The position numbers were made by a program, and so were the translations under genes. From positions 62,001 through 126,000 of the forward strand of contig JAPLKG010000011.1 in assembly GCA_026388185.1 (NCBI GenBank): 64,000 nt of DNA, in the 5' to 3' direction. Position 1 is the first letter of the stretch. Every line of letters starts with the position of its first letter. Positions 5,602 to 35,108 of this stretch are shown here, one piece after another. Origin of the DNA: Candidatus Eisenbacteria bacterium (GTDB lineage: Bacteria; Eisenbacteria; RBG-16-71-46; JAFGJU01). A model generated the notes under the pieces. It had not been told where the DNA came from. It saw only the letters and a list, made by a program, of their open reading frames with translations, and searched no databases.

Positions 5602-6372
5602 ATGAGAGAATCTACGAGAGACGTCTGGGAGAGATACTGGGAAGTCCACGCGGACGCGGACGAGCTCTACTCAAACGAAGACAGAATCGTTAACCAGCTC
5701 GTGTCCTCTTGCCCAATCAAGGGACAGAGAGTCCTCGAGGTGGGGGCCGGTTCCGGGAGGGACAGCGTGAGATTGGTCCACCTGGGCGGTGCGGTTTTCG
5801 TGATTGACTACGCCGAGAGCTCTCTCGCGGTTGTTAGGAGAGAAGCGTCGGCCGCCGGTGTGGAGGTGCACCTGGTGCGCGGCGATGCTACCGGCATGCC
5901 TTTCAAAGACGCTTGTTTTGACGCCCTGTTTCACCAGGGCCTCATGGAGCATTTCCGAGATCCCTCCGGCCTTCTTGACGAGAACAGAAGGGTTCTCAAG
6001 ACCGGGGGCGTCATTCTAGTGGACGTTCCCCAGAGATATCACATATATACGCTCGTCAAGCACTTTCTCATTTTCTTCGGGAAGTGGTTTGCCGGCTGGG
6101 AGACGGAATTTACCGTCGGTTCCCTCGAAAGACTGATCGCGTCCAGGGGATTCAGAGTGAAGTCTTCGTATGGAGATTGGATGGTGCCCGGGTTCTTCTA
6201 CAGAGGATTCAGGTACGTGCTCAGGCAGTTGGGTGTTGCCAGACTTCCGAAGTATCCGAGGCCGGTGCCGCTGCTCTCGGGCCTGACGGACAGGTTCAGG
6301 AATTGGTTTCGCAAGAAGCGCCTCGCGTTCTACACTTTTGCCGTCGTCGGAACGGTCGCCAGAAAGGAATGA
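5602..6372 (+). CDS. Class I SAM-dependent methyltransferase
   Basis: A 256-residue protein with the Rossmann SAM-binding motif VLEVGAGSG at residues 44-52, the acidic end of strand 2 (VIDYAE) and motif-IV-like FDALFHQGLMEHF near residue 108. This is the Methyltransf_11/25 arrangement. The C-terminal third is basic (RFRNWFRKKRL) and could contact membrane or a polyanionic acceptor. Standing directly before a glycosyltransferase gene, it probably modifies a sugar or lipid-linked glycan, but the acceptor is not determinable. It marks the left end of the glycan locus. Confidence 0.8.
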   Translation: MRESTRDVWERYWEVHADADELYSNEDRIVNQLVSSCPIKGQRVLEVGAGSGRDSVRLVHLGGAVFVIDYAESSLAVVRREASAAGVEVHLVRGDATGMPFKDACFDALFHQGLMEHFRDPSGLLDENRRVLKTGGVILVDVPQRYHIYTLVKHFLIFFGKWFAGWETEFTVGSLERLIASRGFRVKSSYGDWMVPGFFYRGFRYVLRQLGVARLPKYPRPVPLLSGLTDRFRNWFRKKRLAFYTFAVVGTVARKE

Positions 6373-6381
6373 GGGTCACCC

Positions 6382-7530
6382 TTGAAGAGACTCAGAGTGC
6401 TTGCTTTCAATTGGCGAGACATTGAGAATCCGGAGGCCGGCGGCGCCGAAGTTCATCTTCACGAAATCCTGCGTTGGCTCGTGAAGCAGGGCCATTCCGT
6501 AACTCTTCTGTCCAGCTCCTTCAGGGGCTGCGCGCCGACCACGGAGATCGACGGCGTGCGAGTCTTGAGAAGGGGAAGGTGGTTCAATGCAAACCTTGCG
6601 TTGCCCCTCGCCTACTTGAGGGAGCTCAGGCGCGAGAATTTCGACGTCGTCCTGGAAGACATAAACAAGATACCATTCTACACTCCCTGCTTCGTCAAGG
6701 CCCCTGTTCTCGCCATCGTGCCTCACCTTTTCGGCACAACTGTGTTTCAAGAGGCTAGCTTTCCTTTCGCCATGTATGTATATTCCTATGAGCTACTCAT
6801 TCCGTTCGTGTACCGGAATGTCAGGTTCATGGTGATCTCCGAAAGCACCAAGCGCGACCTCATCAAAAGGGGCGTACGGCCCGACAAGATTGACGTCGTC
6901 GAGTGTGGTCTCGACCACACCCTCTATAGAAAGATGGACGTGCCCCGAGATCCCAAACTTGTTCTTTATCTCGGGAGACTTAGAAAGTATAAATGTGTTC
7001 ACCTTCTCATTAGAGCCATGATCAACGTCAGGGATTCCGTGCCCGGTGCGCGACTTGTGGTCGTTGGGGACGGACCGTACAAATCCGAGCTCGAAGATCT
7101 TGCGCGGGCGCTCGGCTTGAGCGAGACGGTTGAGTTCAGGGGGCACGTGAGTCCGGACGAAAAGGTGAAGCTTCTGTGCCAGGCCACGGTCGTGGCCAAC
7201 CCGTCTCCCAAGGAGGGGTGGGGTCTTACGGTCGTGGAAGCCAATGCCTGCGGCGTGCCGGTCGTCGCCAGCAGCAGCCCGGGGCTCGTCGACTCCATAA
7301 GGGACGGAGAGACCGGCATCCTGGTGGAGCACGGAAACGTGGAACAACTTGCGCAAAGAATGGTAGAACTACTTGTGAATGACGAGCTAAGGGAGAGACT
7401 GTCAAGGGCGGCAGTCGAGTGGGCTGGCAGGTTTAGCTGGGAAGGTTGCGCAAGAAGAGCCGGAGGGCTGATTGAGCGGATCGTCGAGGCTGGCGAGGCC
7501 GAGGCGAGAACCTGTGGTCCGACAGGGTAA
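6382..7530 (+). CDS. Glycosyltransferase family 4
   Basis: A 382-residue GT-B enzyme. The N-terminal domain has the GT4 loop GGAEVHLHEI near residue 21, and the C-terminal domain has LVLYLGRLRKYKCV, VVVGDGPYKSELE and the nucleotide-sugar motif E-x7-E in PKEGWGLTVVEANACG. GT4 enzymes are retaining transferases using UDP- or GDP-sugars in the cytoplasm. TTG 6382 is the only start near the family N-terminus and has GAGGG seven bases upstream. Donor and acceptor are unknown. Confidence 0.88.
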   Translation: MKRLRVLAFNWRDIENPEAGGAEVHLHEILRWLVKQGHSVTLLSSSFRGCAPTTEIDGVRVLRRGRWFNANLALPLAYLRELRRENFDVVLEDINKIPFYTPCFVKAPVLAIVPHLFGTTVFQEASFPFAMYVYSYELLIPFVYRNVRFMVISESTKRDLIKRGVRPDKIDVVECGLDHTLYRKMDVPRDPKLVLYLGRLRKYKCVHLLIRAMINVRDSVPGARLVVVGDGPYKSELEDLARALGLSETVEFRGHVSPDEKVKLLCQATVVANPSPKEGWGLTVVEANACGVPVVASSSPGLVDSIRDGETGILVEHGNVEQLAQRMVELLVNDELRERLSRAAVEWAGRFSWEGCARRAGGLIERIVEAGEAEARTCGPTG

Positions 7531-7554
7531 CCTCAAGTGACTCAAAGGGTATCC

Positions 7555-8655
7555 ATGAGCGAGCTCAACGACGCAACGTCAGTCGATTCAAACGAAGCGT
7601 GCAACGGGAGCCTCGAGAAAAAGGACTCTCCGGCGAAGCGCCGCCACATAAAGCACATCATGGTCGCGGCCAAGATAATCGTCAGCCTTTCGCTCCTGGC
7701 CTACATCCTTCACAGAGTAGAGCCCGCGAACGTGGTCGAAACCATATCGAAGGCACGCGCAAACCCGCTCATCCTGGCGGCCGTGCTTTTCTTCGTAAGC
7801 AATGTTCTGGGTAGTTGGCTCTGGAGCATGCTTCTGAGCTCTCAGCGGGTGCGCATACCGTTCTACAGGGTGGCGTCCTTCTATTTCGTGGGTCTTTTCT
7901 TCAACAATTTCCTGCCGGCAAACATAGGCGGGGACATCGTCCGGATTTATGACGCCTCACGATATTGCAAGGACAAGAGCGCCGTTTTCATCGCCACGTT
8001 CATGGACCGGGTCATCGGCCTTCTTGCCATCAGCTTCCTTTCTGTCGTCGCCTCGTTCTACGCCCTGGATCATTTCAAGATTTTCTTGCTTTACCTCACC
8101 GTTGTGCTTGGTTTTCTCGGAAGTCTTCTCGTCGTGCTGAGCATCTTGAATCGACGGATCCTCGCCCTTTTCGAGAAGCCGTTCAAGTGGGTCAAGGCGT
8201 TTGACCTGGAGCGCCGCGTGGTCAAATTGTTCGACGAGCTTCACTCGTTCAGGGATCGATTGCCGCTTCTCGTCGCCGTGCTCTCCCTCGCAATCGGCAT
8301 CCAGCTCCTGCGCGTGTACGTTCACTATCTTGTTGCGAGGTCCCTGGGGATAAATATATCACTGTCCTACTTCTTTCTGTTCGTCCCCGTTCTTGCCGCC
8401 CTCTCCGCGCTGCCCATCTCGATAAACGGTCTGGGCGTCAGGGAAGGTGCTGGAGTCGTCTTGTTTGGCCTCGCCCACGTTGCCAGGGGACCGGCGTTCT
8501 TGATAGAGTTCATTACCTATCTTATCGGAGTTGCGATAAGCTTGACCGGAGGTGTCATATTTCTCTTGAGAACGCCCTTCGAGATTTTGAGGAGACACAA
8601 CGCCTCTGCCGCGCCACAATCGCCGACGAGCAATAGCATAGACCGGAGGAGCTAG
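7555..8655 (+). CDS. Flippase-like integral membrane protein (UPF0104 / YbhN / LPG synthase TM family)
   Basis: About eight hydrophobic segments span residues 30-350 of this 366-residue protein. The family signatures YFVGLFFNNFLPANIGGDIVR (the segment at about 105-125) and PISINGLGVREG (about 253-264) are present. This family includes the membrane part of MprF and AglD-like proteins, and members near glycan genes are often proposed to move lipid-linked intermediates across the membrane. No soluble lysyltransferase domain is attached. ATG 7555 with AAAGGG upstream is preferred over GTG 7537. The stop abuts the next ATG exactly, indicating coupling. Confidence 0.85.
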   Translation: MSELNDATSVDSNEACNGSLEKKDSPAKRRHIKHIMVAAKIIVSLSLLAYILHRVEPANVVETISKARANPLILAAVLFFVSNVLGSWLWSMLLSSQRVRIPFYRVASFYFVGLFFNNFLPANIGGDIVRIYDASRYCKDKSAVFIATFMDRVIGLLAISFLSVVASFYALDHFKIFLLYLTVVLGFLGSLLVVLSILNRRILALFEKPFKWVKAFDLERRVVKLFDELHSFRDRLPLLVAVLSLAIGIQLLRVYVHYLVARSLGINISLSYFFLFVPVLAALSALPISINGLGVREGAGVVLFGLAHVARGPAFLIEFITYLIGVAISLTGGVIFLLRTPFEILRRHNASAAPQSPTSNSIDRRS

Positions 8656-30644: not shown

Positions 30645-30674
30645 TTGACAGTAGGAGGGGGATATCGGTATTAT
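30645..30674 (+). promoter_or_regulatory. Strong sigma-70-type promoter of the dcw cluster
   Basis: A perfect TTGACA (30645-30650) is followed after 18 bases by TATTAT (30669-30674), five of six matches to the -10 consensus. Transcription would start near 30681, exactly where the repeated GTGGTGA boxes begin. No other convincing promoter was found before ftsZ, so this one probably drives the whole 18 kb cluster. Confidence 0.8.
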
Positions 30675-30680
30675 GCGGCA

Positions 30681-30726
30681 GTGGTGAAGAGTGGTGATTT
30701 GAGGTGACATAACCCTAATGATGGTG
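30681..30726 (+). promoter_or_regulatory. Putative MraZ operator: 10-bp-phased GTGGTGA repeats
   Basis: Three consecutive 10-base units begin GTGGTGA (30681), GTGGTGA (30691) and GAGGTGA (30701); a fourth, weaker copy ATGGTGT (30721) keeps the same phase after one skipped unit. MraZ of Escherichia coli binds TGGGN repeats separated by 5 bases, also a 10-base period, upstream of its own gene. The core TGGTG in a 10-bp period just downstream of the -10 box fits autorepression by MraZ. The last copy overlaps the region where the mraZ ribosome-binding site should be. Confidence 0.72.
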
Positions 30727-30730
30727 TTCT

Positions 30731-31195
30731 ATGGAAATCGCATTTCAGGGAACGTTCGCGCACACGATAGACCAGAAGGGTAGACTGAGCATACCCGCGA
30801 CGCTCAGGGAAATGCTTCCGAAGAATCAGCAGAGGAAATTCACCGTCATGAGGGGGCTGGACGGCTGCCTCTTTCTCTATCCGAGAGGAGAGTGGGAGAG
30901 GGTGCAGAGAAAGATAAAGAGGCTTCCCTTCTGGAAGGCCGACACGAGAAGGTTCGCGAGGCTATTCTTTCAGAAGGCATACAACGTGGAGCCTGACAGA
31001 CAGGGGCGAGTGACGATTCCACAGGAATTGCTCGAGGAGACAAGATTCGACAAGGAAGTGTGGTTCCTGGGAGTGGGGGAGAGAATAGAGATTTGGAATC
31101 CCAAGGTTTACAAGAAGTATCTGAGCGAAGGCAACGTGACGTTCGAAGAAGCAGCCGAGAAGGTCTTGGTACCGAGAGAAGACACGGATGACTGA
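30731..31195 (+). CDS. mraZ: Transcriptional regulator / cell division cluster protein MraZ
   Basis: The 154-residue protein has the two SpoVT-AbrB-like repeats of MraZ, each with the D-x3-R signature: D14-QKG-R18 and D89-RQG-R93. MraZ forms octameric or dodecameric rings and represses the dcw promoter by binding short direct repeats. Such repeats lie directly upstream here. No good Shine-Dalgarno sequence precedes ATG 30731. The C-terminus is overlapped by the next gene by eight bases. Confidence 0.95.
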   Translation: MEIAFQGTFAHTIDQKGRLSIPATLREMLPKNQQRKFTVMRGLDGCLFLYPRGEWERVQRKIKRLPFWKADTRRFARLFFQKAYNVEPDRQGRVTIPQELLEETRFDKEVWFLGVGERIEIWNPKVYKKYLSEGNVTFEEAAEKVLVPREDTDD

Positions 31196-31622
31196 AGAAT
31201 ATCCGGGGCACAACAAGTCTGCATTTCGCACACGAGTGCAAGAGGCCGGGGCTCTAGTGGCCATAGTATTGGAGGGGAGGCTCTCTGTCAGGAACGCTGA
31301 AGCTCTGACAGGCCGTCTCGCAAGGCTCTTCACATCTGGGAAGTCCGCTATCATAATCGACTTCTCAAGGCTTAAGCACGCCGACTACAGATGCCTTCCC
31401 TCCTTTGCCTCTTCACTCAAGAGGCTGTCCCTGTGCGGCTGTCATGTGACCCTTTGCAGTATGAGTGACTACGTCTTCAACATCTTCAAGGCAGTGGGGT
31501 GTGATGACGGGCTGGACATCTACGCGAGTAAACAAGAGGCTGTGAGAGCGCTGGACTTCTACCTAGCCGGGTCTTGCGCCTCTCGGTCGTCTCGAACACG
31601 AGCCATATCTGCAACCTTATGA
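31188..31622 (+). CDS. STAS-domain protein lacking the usual phosphorylation site
   Basis: This 144-residue protein has the STAS order of strands and helices: ALVAIVLEGRLSVRNAEAL (21-39), AIIIDFSRLKHADYRCL (54-70) and a helix ASSLKRLSLCG, then VTLCSMSDYVFNIFKAVGC. In SpoIIAA-like anti-anti-sigma factors the loop after the second strand reads D-S-S-G with a phosphorylatable Ser. Here it is D66-Y-R-C69, so switching by a serine kinase is unlikely. It overlaps mraZ and lies just before rsmH, an unusual place for such a gene. No partner kinase or sigma factor gene is adjacent. Confidence 0.75.
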   Translation: MTEEYPGHNKSAFRTRVQEAGALVAIVLEGRLSVRNAEALTGRLARLFTSGKSAIIIDFSRLKHADYRCLPSFASSLKRLSLCGCHVTLCSMSDYVFNIFKAVGCDDGLDIYASKQEAVRALDFYLAGSCASRSSRTRAISATL

Positions 31623-31626
31623 CAAA

Positions 31627-32517
31627 ATGCCCCAAAGTCAACCTGGAAAACGGCAGCCACACGCACCAGTCATGGTGCGTGAGATCTTGTCGCTGCTCGT
31701 CCACGACCCTGACGGCACTTACGTAGACTGCACTCTGGGTTGTGGAGGACACGCTGCCGCCATTCTGGGAAAGCTCTCTCACCAGGGCAGGCTCATAGGC
31801 ATGGACAAGGACGGAGCCTCGTTTCTTGTCGCCGGTGAGAATCTTAGAGCGTTTGGTGAAAGAGCGTTGCTCTTCAATCGAGACTTCCGAGAGTTGCCAA
31901 ACACGCTGGCGGATTTGTCACTCAGATCCGTCGACGGCATATTGTTCGACCTAGGAATTTCCTCCTTCCAGCTTGGCTCCGAGAGGGGCTTCAGCTTTCA
32001 GAAGGAGTCACCGCTTGACATGCGATTCGACCCCGCGAGGGGAGTTACAGCCGCCGAGCTTCTGAACACGTTGGAGGAGAGGCGGTTGGTGGAGATTTTC
32101 AGGGTGTACGGTGACGTACGAAACGCGAGAGGGCTTGCGCGGTCGATAGTGGAGTTCAGAAGAAGGCAGCCCTTCCTGACCACGCTCCACCTCGTCTCTG
32201 CAGCCCGAAAGGTCATTTCCCACGGAAACCCGCACGGCTCTCTTGCAAGAATCTTTCAGGCACTCAGGATAGTCGTTAACGACGAACTTGATAACGTGCG
32301 CGAGGGATTAGGGCTCGCTGCGCCTCTCCTCGCCCCCGAGGGCAGGCTCTGCGTAGTCTCGTATCATTCGGGCGAAGACAGGATCGTGAAGCAATTCATG
32401 CGCGAGACGTTGCTTCTCGCCATTCTCACCCGCAAACCGTTGAGACCGGGAAGAGACGAAGTCGTGGAGAATCCAAGGTCCAGGAGCGCTCTGCTGAGAG
32501 CAGCCAGGAGGTCGTAG
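31627..32517 (+). CDS. rsmH: 16S rRNA (cytosine-1402-N4)-methyltransferase
   Basis: RsmH (MraW) methylates C1402 in the ribosomal P site using SAM. The 296-residue sequence has HAPVMVREILSLL, the SAM loop VDCTLGCGGHAAAIL, ILFDLGISSFQL, the MDMRF-like LDMRFDP and the final NPRSRSALLRAARR. A conserved HSLEDR reads HSGEDR here. The length is close to the usual 300-310. ATG 31627 is five bases after the STAS stop. Confidence 0.96.
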   Translation: MPQSQPGKRQPHAPVMVREILSLLVHDPDGTYVDCTLGCGGHAAAILGKLSHQGRLIGMDKDGASFLVAGENLRAFGERALLFNRDFRELPNTLADLSLRSVDGILFDLGISSFQLGSERGFSFQKESPLDMRFDPARGVTAAELLNTLEERRLVEIFRVYGDVRNARGLARSIVEFRRRQPFLTTLHLVSAARKVISHGNPHGSLARIFQALRIVVNDELDNVREGLGLAAPLLAPEGRLCVVSYHSGEDRIVKQFMRETLLLAILTRKPLRPGRDEVVENPRSRSALLRAARRS

Positions 32518-32518
32518 G

Positions 32519-32974
32519 ATGACCAGGTTCTTGAGGAGATCGCCGCCCCCGAGATCGGGTTGGAGCACGTTTCCGTCACAGCGCAAGAATGCCCTCAAGA
32601 GGGTGCTCTCGTTCGCGGTGGCCTTCCTTCTCGCCTTCCTCTTCGCCTGGGAGAACATCTACATGGATCAGCTTCTCTCCGACCTGCAGAAGCAGAGGAA
32701 CGCGGTGGAGAACCTTCGCGCGCAGGTGACCGAAACGCGCGCTGTAATCCAGGAGAAGATGATGCTGGCGCTTTCAGACACCGACGCATCGAGCATTGGA
32801 CTCGGAGCAGCCGACGTTGAACAGATCGTCCTGCTCTCGGAAAGCTCGGGCCTCTTTGCCGGGCGGCAGTACGTCCCGGCTCGACTGTCTTCGTTGGAAC
32901 AAGTTCAGAGACGGATATTTGACTTCTTCGTGACGACGGCTCTGGCGCGTGTGCAGAGTCCGGAGCAGCCATAA
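32519..32974 (+). CDS. FtsL-like single-pass division protein (positional call)
   Basis: The 151-residue protein has a basic N-terminus, one transmembrane helix (about residues 28-45, LSFAVAFLLAFLFAW) and a short coiled-coil stretch (about 50-80, LSDLQKQRNAVENLRAQV). Size, topology and its place between rsmH and ftsI are those of FtsL, the FtsB/FtsQ partner in the divisome. The C-terminal 70 residues extend beyond typical FtsL and have no recognised domain. AGGAGG (32506-32511) seven bases upstream supports ATG 32519. The identification relies on location and topology, since FtsL diverges strongly. Confidence 0.65.
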   Translation: MTRFLRRSPPPRSGWSTFPSQRKNALKRVLSFAVAFLLAFLFAWENIYMDQLLSDLQKQRNAVENLRAQVTETRAVIQEKMMLALSDTDASSIGLGAADVEQIVLLSESSGLFAGRQYVPARLSSLEQVQRRIFDFFVTTALARVQSPEQP

Positions 32975-32993
32975 AAAAACCGGAACATCAGAC

Positions 32994-35108
32994 ATGAGAA
33001 CGTATGATCCCAAGCGAAGACTCAAGCACCTTGCTCTCGCTTGCCTGGTCATATGGCTCATCCTCTTTGTCAGGCTACTCCAGGTCCAGATCTTCCTCCA
33101 TTCCTCCTACGTGAACAAAGCAATTGCGCAGCAAAATCGACGCGTACCGGTGAGCGGGATCAGGGGTACCATCTACGACAGAAACGGCGAAATCCTGGCC
33201 CAGGACATCAGGACCTCCTCGGTCTGCGCCTACCCCGATCAAGTGAAGAACAAGGTTTCCACCGCCAGAGAGTTGAGTTCGGTCCTCGGCGTTCCCTACG
33301 GAAGGGTCCTCGCGCAACTCAAGAGAAAAGTGGGCTACGTCTCTATAGCCAGCAAGATATCTGCTGAGGCCGAAGCCAAACTGCGTGAGGCAAGACTCGG
33401 GGGCGTAGACCTGATTGACGACACAAGACGGATATATCCCCTTGGGGCTGCTGCCTGCCACGTGGTCGGGCTCGTAAATCCCGACGGCGAGGGCATAGAA
33501 GGCGTCGAGGCAGGAATGAACGAGGTTCTGATGGGCACGCCGGGCTGGTTTATCCTGGCCCACGACGCCAAGGGAGAAGACTTTGTCACGGCCAAGAGTG
33601 TGATGAAGGAGCCGAGAGCGGGGGCCAACGTAATCCTGACAATCGATTCCCACTACCAGACGATCGCGGCCTCAAGTCTCAAGCGAGCAGTCGCCGCGAA
33701 CAACGCTGTTGGCGGGACGATCATCATCGTCAATCCAGCCACGGGCGAAATACTGGCAATGGCCAACGAGCCCAGCTTCGATCCTTCCGACAATCGCACC
33801 TGGAAAAAAGGTGCACTGAGAAACAGGGCCGTGACCGACCAGTTCGAACCGGGGTCGACCTTCAAGCTCATCACTGTTTCCGCAGTCCTTGACGAGAAGC
33901 TTGCGGATTCGACGAGCGCGTTCTACGCAGAAAACGGCGTTGCCTACATTGGAAAAGCCAGGATCACCGACACGCATGAGCACGGATGGCTCAATCTCAA
34001 GGAGTTCTTCACGGTATCGAGCAACATCGTCGCGGCCAAACTGGGGATGCTTCTCGGGAAAGAGAGGTTCTACAGATATTGTCGCGCCTTTGGGTTTGGG
34101 GCGACGACCGGTATAGACCTTCCCGGAGAGGCTGCGGGCAAGCTGAGAAACCCTTCCGCCTGGTCCGAGAGATCTCTTCCCACGATGGCGTTCGGCCAGG
34201 AGATTTCTGTCACGTCTCTACAACTCGTGATGGCCTATGCGGCAATTGCCAATGACGGCATACTCATGCGCCCCGCCACAATAAAGCGCGTGCTGGACAC
34301 CGAAAGAAAACCCTTGAGGACGTGGCAACCTCGCAGAACACGGCAGGTGGTCACTGCTTCCACCGCCAGGACTGTCCGCGAGTTTCTCGCCACCGCCGTA
34401 GACATAGGAACCGGCAGGAACGCCGGCGTTGACTGGTGCAGGTTGGGCGGCAAGACTGGAACCGCACAGAAATACGACCCGAACACTCGTACGTATTCGT
34501 ACTGGATAAGTTCTTTCGCAGGACTCGTTCCTGCCGAGAATACAAAGATTGTCTGCCTTGTCGTGCTGGATCAGCCCGCTCTGGCACACTTAGGCGCGCT
34601 CGTGGCAGCCCCGGTTTTCAAGGAGGTGATTGAGACTGTCAGCAAGTGTTCGAGGTCGCCTTTGGCCCCCGGCTTTGACAGCATTCCCTTTGTAGTCAAG
34701 AACGACGCGTCCCTGCGAGTGCCGGACGTTAGACTTCTTGCCGAGGAGAAAGCGGGGGAAGACCTGCGGAAGGCCGGTTTCCGCGCGCAGCTAAAGGGGA
34801 TCGGTAGTCGAGTGGTCTCGCAGGACCCACCTCCGGGAGCCTTGACCAAGGCGGGGGCAGAGGTGCAGCTTGAACTCAAGGAGAGCGAGAAGCTGCCCGA
34901 GAGTGCGGCGGTCATTCCGGACCTCACCGGCCTCAGCGTGAGGGAGGCGCTCCGAAAGCTCTCCTTCATCGCCGTGAGTGCCAAGGTCGACGGAAGCGGC
35001 GTCGTAGTCGCTCAGTTTCCGCCTCCCGGGACCACTACTCGCCGCGGCGAGCGATGCGTTTTGACGTGTAGACCCACGGTTGACGTCTATACCTGTAGTA
35101 CCAGATGA
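32994..35108 (+). CDS. ftsI: Septal peptidoglycan transpeptidase (class B PBP) with two PASTA domains
   Basis: A 704-residue class B penicillin-binding protein: one N-terminal membrane helix (about 13-35), PBP dimerisation domain (about 45-200) and transpeptidase domain with Ser288-T-F-Lys291, S342-S-N344 and K487-T-G489. Two PASTA domains follow at about 575-631 and 640-698. It cross-links septal peptidoglycan with FtsW. PASTA domains are usual on PBPs of Gram-positives and SpoVD/PBP2x types and less common in Gram-negative FtsI. ATG 32994 starts just before the basic membrane anchor; an upstream GTG overlaps the previous gene and is less likely. Confidence 0.93.
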   Translation: MRTYDPKRRLKHLALACLVIWLILFVRLLQVQIFLHSSYVNKAIAQQNRRVPVSGIRGTIYDRNGEILAQDIRTSSVCAYPDQVKNKVSTARELSSVLGVPYGRVLAQLKRKVGYVSIASKISAEAEAKLREARLGGVDLIDDTRRIYPLGAAACHVVGLVNPDGEGIEGVEAGMNEVLMGTPGWFILAHDAKGEDFVTAKSVMKEPRAGANVILTIDSHYQTIAASSLKRAVAANNAVGGTIIIVNPATGEILAMANEPSFDPSDNRTWKKGALRNRAVTDQFEPGSTFKLITVSAVLDEKLADSTSAFYAENGVAYIGKARITDTHEHGWLNLKEFFTVSSNIVAAKLGMLLGKERFYRYCRAFGFGATTGIDLPGEAAGKLRNPSAWSERSLPTMAFGQEISVTSLQLVMAYAAIANDGILMRPATIKRVLDTERKPLRTWQPRRTRQVVTASTARTVREFLATAVDIGTGRNAGVDWCRLGGKTGTAQKYDPNTRTYSYWISSFAGLVPAENTKIVCLVVLDQPALAHLGALVAAPVFKEVIETVSKCSRSPLAPGFDSIPFVVKNDASLRVPDVRLLAEEKAGEDLRKAGFRAQLKGIGSRVVSQDPPPGALTKAGAEVQLELKESEKLPESAAVIPDLTGLSVREALRKLSFIAVSAKVDGSGVVVAQFPPPGTTTRRGERCVLTCRPTVDVYTCSTR

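Follow-up and report, generated by a model that had tools for sequence, protein, structure and literature searches.

Several described systems come close to the locus studied here. SpoIIAA and RsbV are STAS proteins with a phosphorylated serine, and the stressosome protein RsbS also keeps its loop serine and works with RsbR and RsbT. MlaB is a small STAS protein that relies on constitutive binding rather than on partner switching, in MlaFB and YchM-ACP, STAS domains provide constitutive docking, and small ligands are bound by some members of the domain superfamily. The head of the dcw operon, in turn, is among the best-studied bacterial gene orders, and for MraZ, a widespread regulator of this operon, no established signal is known to us. 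Here, we describe an extra conserved gene in this operon head, encoding a STAS protein between mraZ and rsmH. No published description of a STAS gene with mraZ and rsmH or mraW was found in the literature searched, which did not include subscription papers and preprints; genome annotations may carry the gene, uncommented, as "STAS domain-containing protein," and "unreported" is to be read within that literature.

A STAS gene in the operon head of Candidatus Eisenbacteria

The window, i.e., the whole stretch of 64,000 nucleotides that was analyzed, comes from Candidatus Eisenbacteria, with CP070702.1 as the nearest named genome. The following features make up its operon head.

30645-30650 and 30669-30674, + strand: sigma70-like promoter, TTGACA, 18 nt, TATTAT (11/12 in a consensus scan)
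30681-30707, + strand: putative MraZ operator GTGGTGA-AGA-GTGGTGA-TTT-GAGGTGA, three 7-mers with a 10-bp period just after the -10 element
30731-31195, + strand: mraZ, operon regulator, 154 amino acids (Pfam PF02381, E = 6.1e-35)
31188-31622, + strand: mraZ-linked STAS gene, ATG start, 144 amino acids, Ser/Thr absent at the canonical phosphosite
31377-31391, + strand: family motif H64-A-D66-Y67-R68 in the canonical phosphosite loop (75-member alignment)
31470-31472, + strand: codon of Y95 (from the alignment), at the start of the third helix (residues 94 to 102 in the AF2 model)
31627-32517, + strand: rsmH (mraW), 16S rRNA methyltransferase (Pfam PF01795, E = 2e-89)
32519-32974, + strand: short ORF in the ftsL position, named by position alone (an ORF is kept there in L002, L003, L091, and L092)
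32949-35108, + strand: ftsI (penicillin-binding protein) reading frame (homologues are next in order in L091 to L095 and L097)

The STAS gene of the window lies between mraZ and rsmH, on the same strand as both. The initial annotation had described an overlap of eight bases with mraZ, which we recovered (the mraZ stop ends at 31195, and the STAS gene starts at 31188), and a distance of five bases to rsmH, which we correct to four (rsmH start at 31627). Its reading of the product as a STAS-domain protein was borne out by Pfam matches to PF01740 (E = 7.9e-10, 38.9 bits, curated cutoff of 22.6) and PF13466 (STAS_2; E = 2.9e-8, 34.2 bits, curated cutoff of 29.2), as well as by the AF2 and Foldseek results given below. 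Two relatives have an ORF in the same position that is 64 to 68% identical to the window STAS. Given these same-place ORFs and the presence of the gene in every Eisenbacteria genome with a readable mraZ, the STAS ORF is not a product of chance.

The putative MraZ site of B. cenocepacia consists of four 7-nt repeats with 3-nt spacers just after the -10 element (PMC7761207), and the window operon head shares this layout of promoter and MraZ boxes. Of 221 loci (a set that includes repeats of some genomes), 176 have pairs of GTGG at an exact 10-bp spacing upstream of mraZ, compared to 1.85 expected from base shuffles; when each genome is counted once, 93 of 115 STAS-linked cases and 31 of 43 unlinked ones have MraZ boxes. 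Given the promoter-like site and the MraZ boxes, arranged as in B. cenocepacia, it is very likely that MraZ autoregulation extends to the STAS gene. Furthermore, most Eisenbacteria have a 4-bp overlap between the end of mraZ and the beginning of the STAS gene, which suggests translational coupling between the two genes. Coexpression with the division genes, which the initial annotation had presented as a necessity, is thus very likely in view of the overlap, the promoter, and the MraZ boxes, although "must" is stronger than these features allow.

The linked STAS gene accompanies mraZ throughout Eisenbacteria

A match to MraZ was obtained in 44 of 47 Eisenbacteria genomes, and the same 44 have a match to the STAS profile; the three genomes without an MraZ match are 68 to 88% complete. 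Among these 44 genomes, none has mraZ without a linked STAS gene, with 43 of the loci read showing the order mraZ-STAS-rsmH and one showing mraZ-STAS at a contig end. In four Eisenbacteria families, 130 to 195 bp separate the STAS gene from the rsmH match, and there the STAS gene lies at most 14 bp from mraZ. In families f5, f7, and f9, this interval between the STAS stop and rsmH holds a conserved nucleotide element, GCTCCCTGCC..CCTCGGGAA, found at the following positions.

L128, 2287-2310, - strand: element (Eisenbacteria f5/f7/f9, as for the five below)
L129, 2307-2329, - strand: element
L130, 3488-3510, + strand: element
L133, 2980-3002, + strand: element
L134, 2252-2270, - strand: element
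L137, 1287-1309, + strand: element

The element gave no Rfam match at an E value of ≤0.1, is not present in the window, and may be a cis-acting RNA ahead of rsmH. The STAS C termini in f5, f7, f9, and f10 all end in Asn, often as -PSPN, -SFN, or -SRN (L128 to L135 and L137). Family f8 has, apart from the mraZ-linked STAS, canonical STAS genes of the HLNST and LNSI types, often in tandem pairs (L241 to L244, L246 to L249, L251, L253, and L256).

The mraZ-STAS-rsmH order spans at least four phyla

When the single window protein was used as the query, 49 of 99 genomes matched, and in 28 of 30 loci retrieved, the STAS gene was preceded by mraZ and followed by rsmH; among the best 20 matches from other families, 17 showed the order mraZ-STAS-rsmH. 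One match outside Eisenbacteria, in genome G074, led to a phylum of 195 genomes. We identify this phylum as Myxococcota, and its genome G153 as Myxococcus xanthus, from sequence agreement of the G153 encapsulin with the solved M. xanthus EncA (4pt2) at positions where sister species differ. A STAS match (E value of ≤1e-12) was found in 146 of the 195 Myxococcota genomes, so that the gene is present in about 143 once at least three genomes are set aside in which the STAS is unlinked or plain mraZ-rsmH was seen (G246, G255, and G261, family f74). The order mraZ-STAS-rsmH was read in 11 Myxococcota families, M. xanthus included, where locus L225 is arranged as follows.

6170-6622: mraZ
6669-7055: STAS gene, motif HLNYR
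7062-7976: rsmH, then ftsL-, ftsI-, and murE-like ORFs

Since M. xanthus is genetically tractable, the function of the gene is open to direct experiment. Two further small phyla, with one family sampled in each, have the STAS gene in 3 of 3 and 10 of 10 genomes. In a sample of 51 genomes, one per family and picked independently of the STAS gene, MraZ was found in 39, and a STAS gene lies between mraZ and rsmH in 7 of the 38 with a readable rsmH.

The mraZ-STAS-rsmH neighborhood was thus found in 37 GTDB families, and its synteny spans at least four phyla. This rules out that the arrangement is unique to one contig, which had been named as a finding that would refute the initial annotation. Plain mraZ-rsmH was found in 41 families, with f67 in both sets, and these 41 may include STAS genes too diverged for detection, as the one in G200 was seen only on closer look. 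The STAS gene is therefore an optional, clade-wide accessory of mraZ-rsmH, and neither neighbor needs it. In most families it lies a few base pairs before rsmH or overlaps it. No STAS gene was seen upstream of rsmH, under the scoring used, in 11 genomes without an MraZ gene call, a small sample in which one locus is cut off at a contig end and one genome has a weak MraZ-like match. Natural MraZ-STAS fusions were not seen in the loci read. In G442 (L167:2155-2567), about 375 bp lie between mraZ and the STAS gene, which touches rsmH.

A predicted STAS fold with a remodeled phosphosite

The AF2 model of the window STAS (pLDDT of 89.5, pTM of 0.79) gave Foldseek matches to SpoIIAA, RsbV, and RsbS with E values of 1e-6 to 5e-8 and TMt values of 0.78 to 0.87, the best being those to SpoIIAA and RsbV. 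A fold other than STAS, the second finding that would have spoken against the initial annotation, is therefore not what is predicted. The protein stays below the cutoffs of the more specific models, with 27 bits for TIGR00377 (anti-sigma factor antagonist; cutoff of 53.45) and 18.9 bits for the spore_II_AA model (cutoff of 114.75). No curated NCBIfam family was found for the linked STAS proteins, whose members reach only general anti-sigma-antagonist models, and none of the alignments displayed contained a solved structure with the family motif; the Haliangium STAS structure 4hyl was ruled out as a solved family member by the Ser at its site.

To compare phosphosites, 75 linked proteins were aligned with 35 unlinked STAS proteins, mostly from the same genomes. 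In the profile alignment, Y67 of the window protein is placed on the phosphorylated Ser58 of SpoIIAA and the family motif on D-S-S-G. At this position, the linked proteins have Tyr (57), Phe (12), Leu (2), Val (2), Ser (1), or Arg (1), versus Ser in 35 of 35 unlinked ones, which were chosen by similarity to the family and include many close paralogues, so that they amount to fewer than 35 independent observations. The alignment shows that the residue corresponding to the phosphorylated Ser is replaced by Tyr or Phe family-wide. The lack of a phosphorylatable residue, claimed for the window protein, thus extends to the whole family (Tyr/Phe in 69 of 75). Linked proteins also share His at position 64 (67/75), Arg at 68 (56/75), Tyr at 95 (68/75, versus Arg in 27 of the 35 others), and Gly at 104 (66/75, versus mostly Lys in the others). 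The window protein carries both the H-x-[D/N]-[Y/F]-R loop and Y95; its D66-Y67-R68-C69 stretch had been read correctly, but the motif that is conserved is H-x-[D/N]-[Y/F]-R, and the Cys is not part of it. The linked STAS proteins present a natural case in which tyrosines have remade a partner-switch surface, possibly to make binding last.

Family f67 (L148, L161, and L162, in 5-Mb genomes) has a STAS protein of about 100 amino acids at the locus that keeps H64, Y67, and Y95, with R68 absent and the second helix partly missing. Its apparent in-frame stops come from the profile overrunning the shortened protein, and the idea of broken genes was discarded. The shortened form is predicted to adopt the STAS fold (pLDDT of 96.3) and is possibly a minimal working form.

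In a maximum-likelihood tree, all linked STAS proteins fall on one side of a branch (support of 95/90), and common descent is likely. Support for a single origin hinges on the motif columns, as it is lost when these are removed and the linked proteins break into five label changes.

A proposed permanent binder made in step with MraZ

We consider the chances about even that the window gene is the Eisenbacteria member of an uncurated family of mraZ-rsmH STAS proteins acting as nonphosphorylatable adaptors that bind permanently, with MraZ as a less firm choice of partner. Through MraZ autoregulation, the STAS protein would be produced together with MraZ and RsmH, and it would stay bound to one partner instead of undergoing phosphorylation-driven release. 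What points to a permanent binder is that the usual phosphosite is lost while the loop and the start of the third helix are kept, and that the gene travels with mraZ and rsmH. The binding surface would be the partner-switch surface, i.e., the loop of residues 64 to 68, the second helix, and the beginning of the third helix, where Y95 lies. If, less firmly, the partner is MraZ, the STAS protein could tune its DNA binding or assembly and would then serve as an operon-encoded gauge of division-gene expression. MraZ is favored because the gene hugs mraZ, as the short overlap in most Eisenbacteria illustrates, and because the 11 genomes lacking an MraZ gene call showed no STAS gene before rsmH. In addition, a modulator encoded in an operon could plausibly act on the regulator of that operon. 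A mirror-tree test gave no correlation of MraZ and STAS tree distances beyond RsmH (partial correlation of 0.01), and no MraZ or RsmH columns convincingly track STAS presence, a comparison that is confounded by descent and whose summary z is undefined due to invariant columns. That several phyla control MraZ through a dedicated STAS protein encoded in the operon, binding via a remodeled partner-switch surface without phosphorylation, is a tentative generalization that we hold to be somewhat doubtful. If true, the STAS fold would here have a new role, that of modulating a transcription factor without phosphorylation.

The STAS protein could act as a chaperone or regulator of the 16S rRNA methyltransferase RsmH rather than on MraZ, in line with its position just before or overlapping rsmH in most families and with STAS tree distances that follow RsmH (partial correlation of 0.45) and not MraZ. 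We regard this as unlikely, given that, among the three proteins, RsmH has the greatest length and makes the best clock, so that the correlation may reflect species descent only, that the four Eisenbacteria families with 130 to 195 bp before rsmH keep the STAS gene close to mraZ, and that the gene was not seen before rsmH where an MraZ call is missing. A permanent sequestration of an RsbW-type anti-sigma kinase, which would couple sigma-factor release to expression of the division operon, appears decidedly unlikely. SpoIIAA and RsbV are the nearest solved folds, and HATPase_c_2 proteins are encoded in all 46 Eisenbacteria genomes searched; however, no kinase gene adjoins the STAS gene in the loci read, Ser-bearing STAS proteins exist in the same genomes, some adjoining HATPase_c_2 genes (e.g., in G002), and Tyr at the phosphosite together with Tyr for Arg at position 95 alters the canonical contact region.

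It is very unlikely, in our view, that the protein works like the MlaB or SulP STAS domains and ties the division operon to some other protein of division, the wall, or the membrane: constitutive docking by STAS domains and a weak profile match to MlaB (E = 9e-4) speak for it, but no candidate partner was found, and the similarity to MlaB and SulP is weaker than that to SpoIIAA. Least of all do we expect a sensor of small molecules, such as a nucleotide or a lipid, which we hold to be highly improbable even though H64, R68, and Y95 are conserved polar residues and ligand binding has precedent among STAS domains. The f67 form persists at the locus although R68 is lost and the second helix is incomplete, and neither the sequence nor the fold search yielded a pointer to a ligand, including the nucleotide or lipid suggested by the initial annotation; its proposed link to envelope state or stress likewise found no support in our analysis.

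Comparison with known systems

Compared to SpoIIAA and RsbV, which are its best Foldseek and profile matches, the linked STAS protein has the same fold and is likewise single domain, but their phosphorylated Ser is Tyr or Phe throughout the linked family, and the gene lies in the dcw operon without an adjacent RsbW-type kinase or sigma gene. An RsbW/SpoIIAB kinase neighbor is not seen in any linked locus, the neighbors being mraZ and rsmH in all of them. RsbS resembles it as a stand-alone STAS protein of similar size with a structural match (6jhk), while partner genes of the RsbR/RsbT type are absent at the linked STAS locus. The likeness to MlaB consists in being a small STAS protein with a weak profile match, found for only 7 of 75 linked proteins; Mla genes are absent at the locus, where mraZ and rsmH flank the gene. 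Finally, relative to the MraZ-RsmH pair of the dcw operon, which has no such gene in 41 sampled families, the operon described here has an extra gene inserted.
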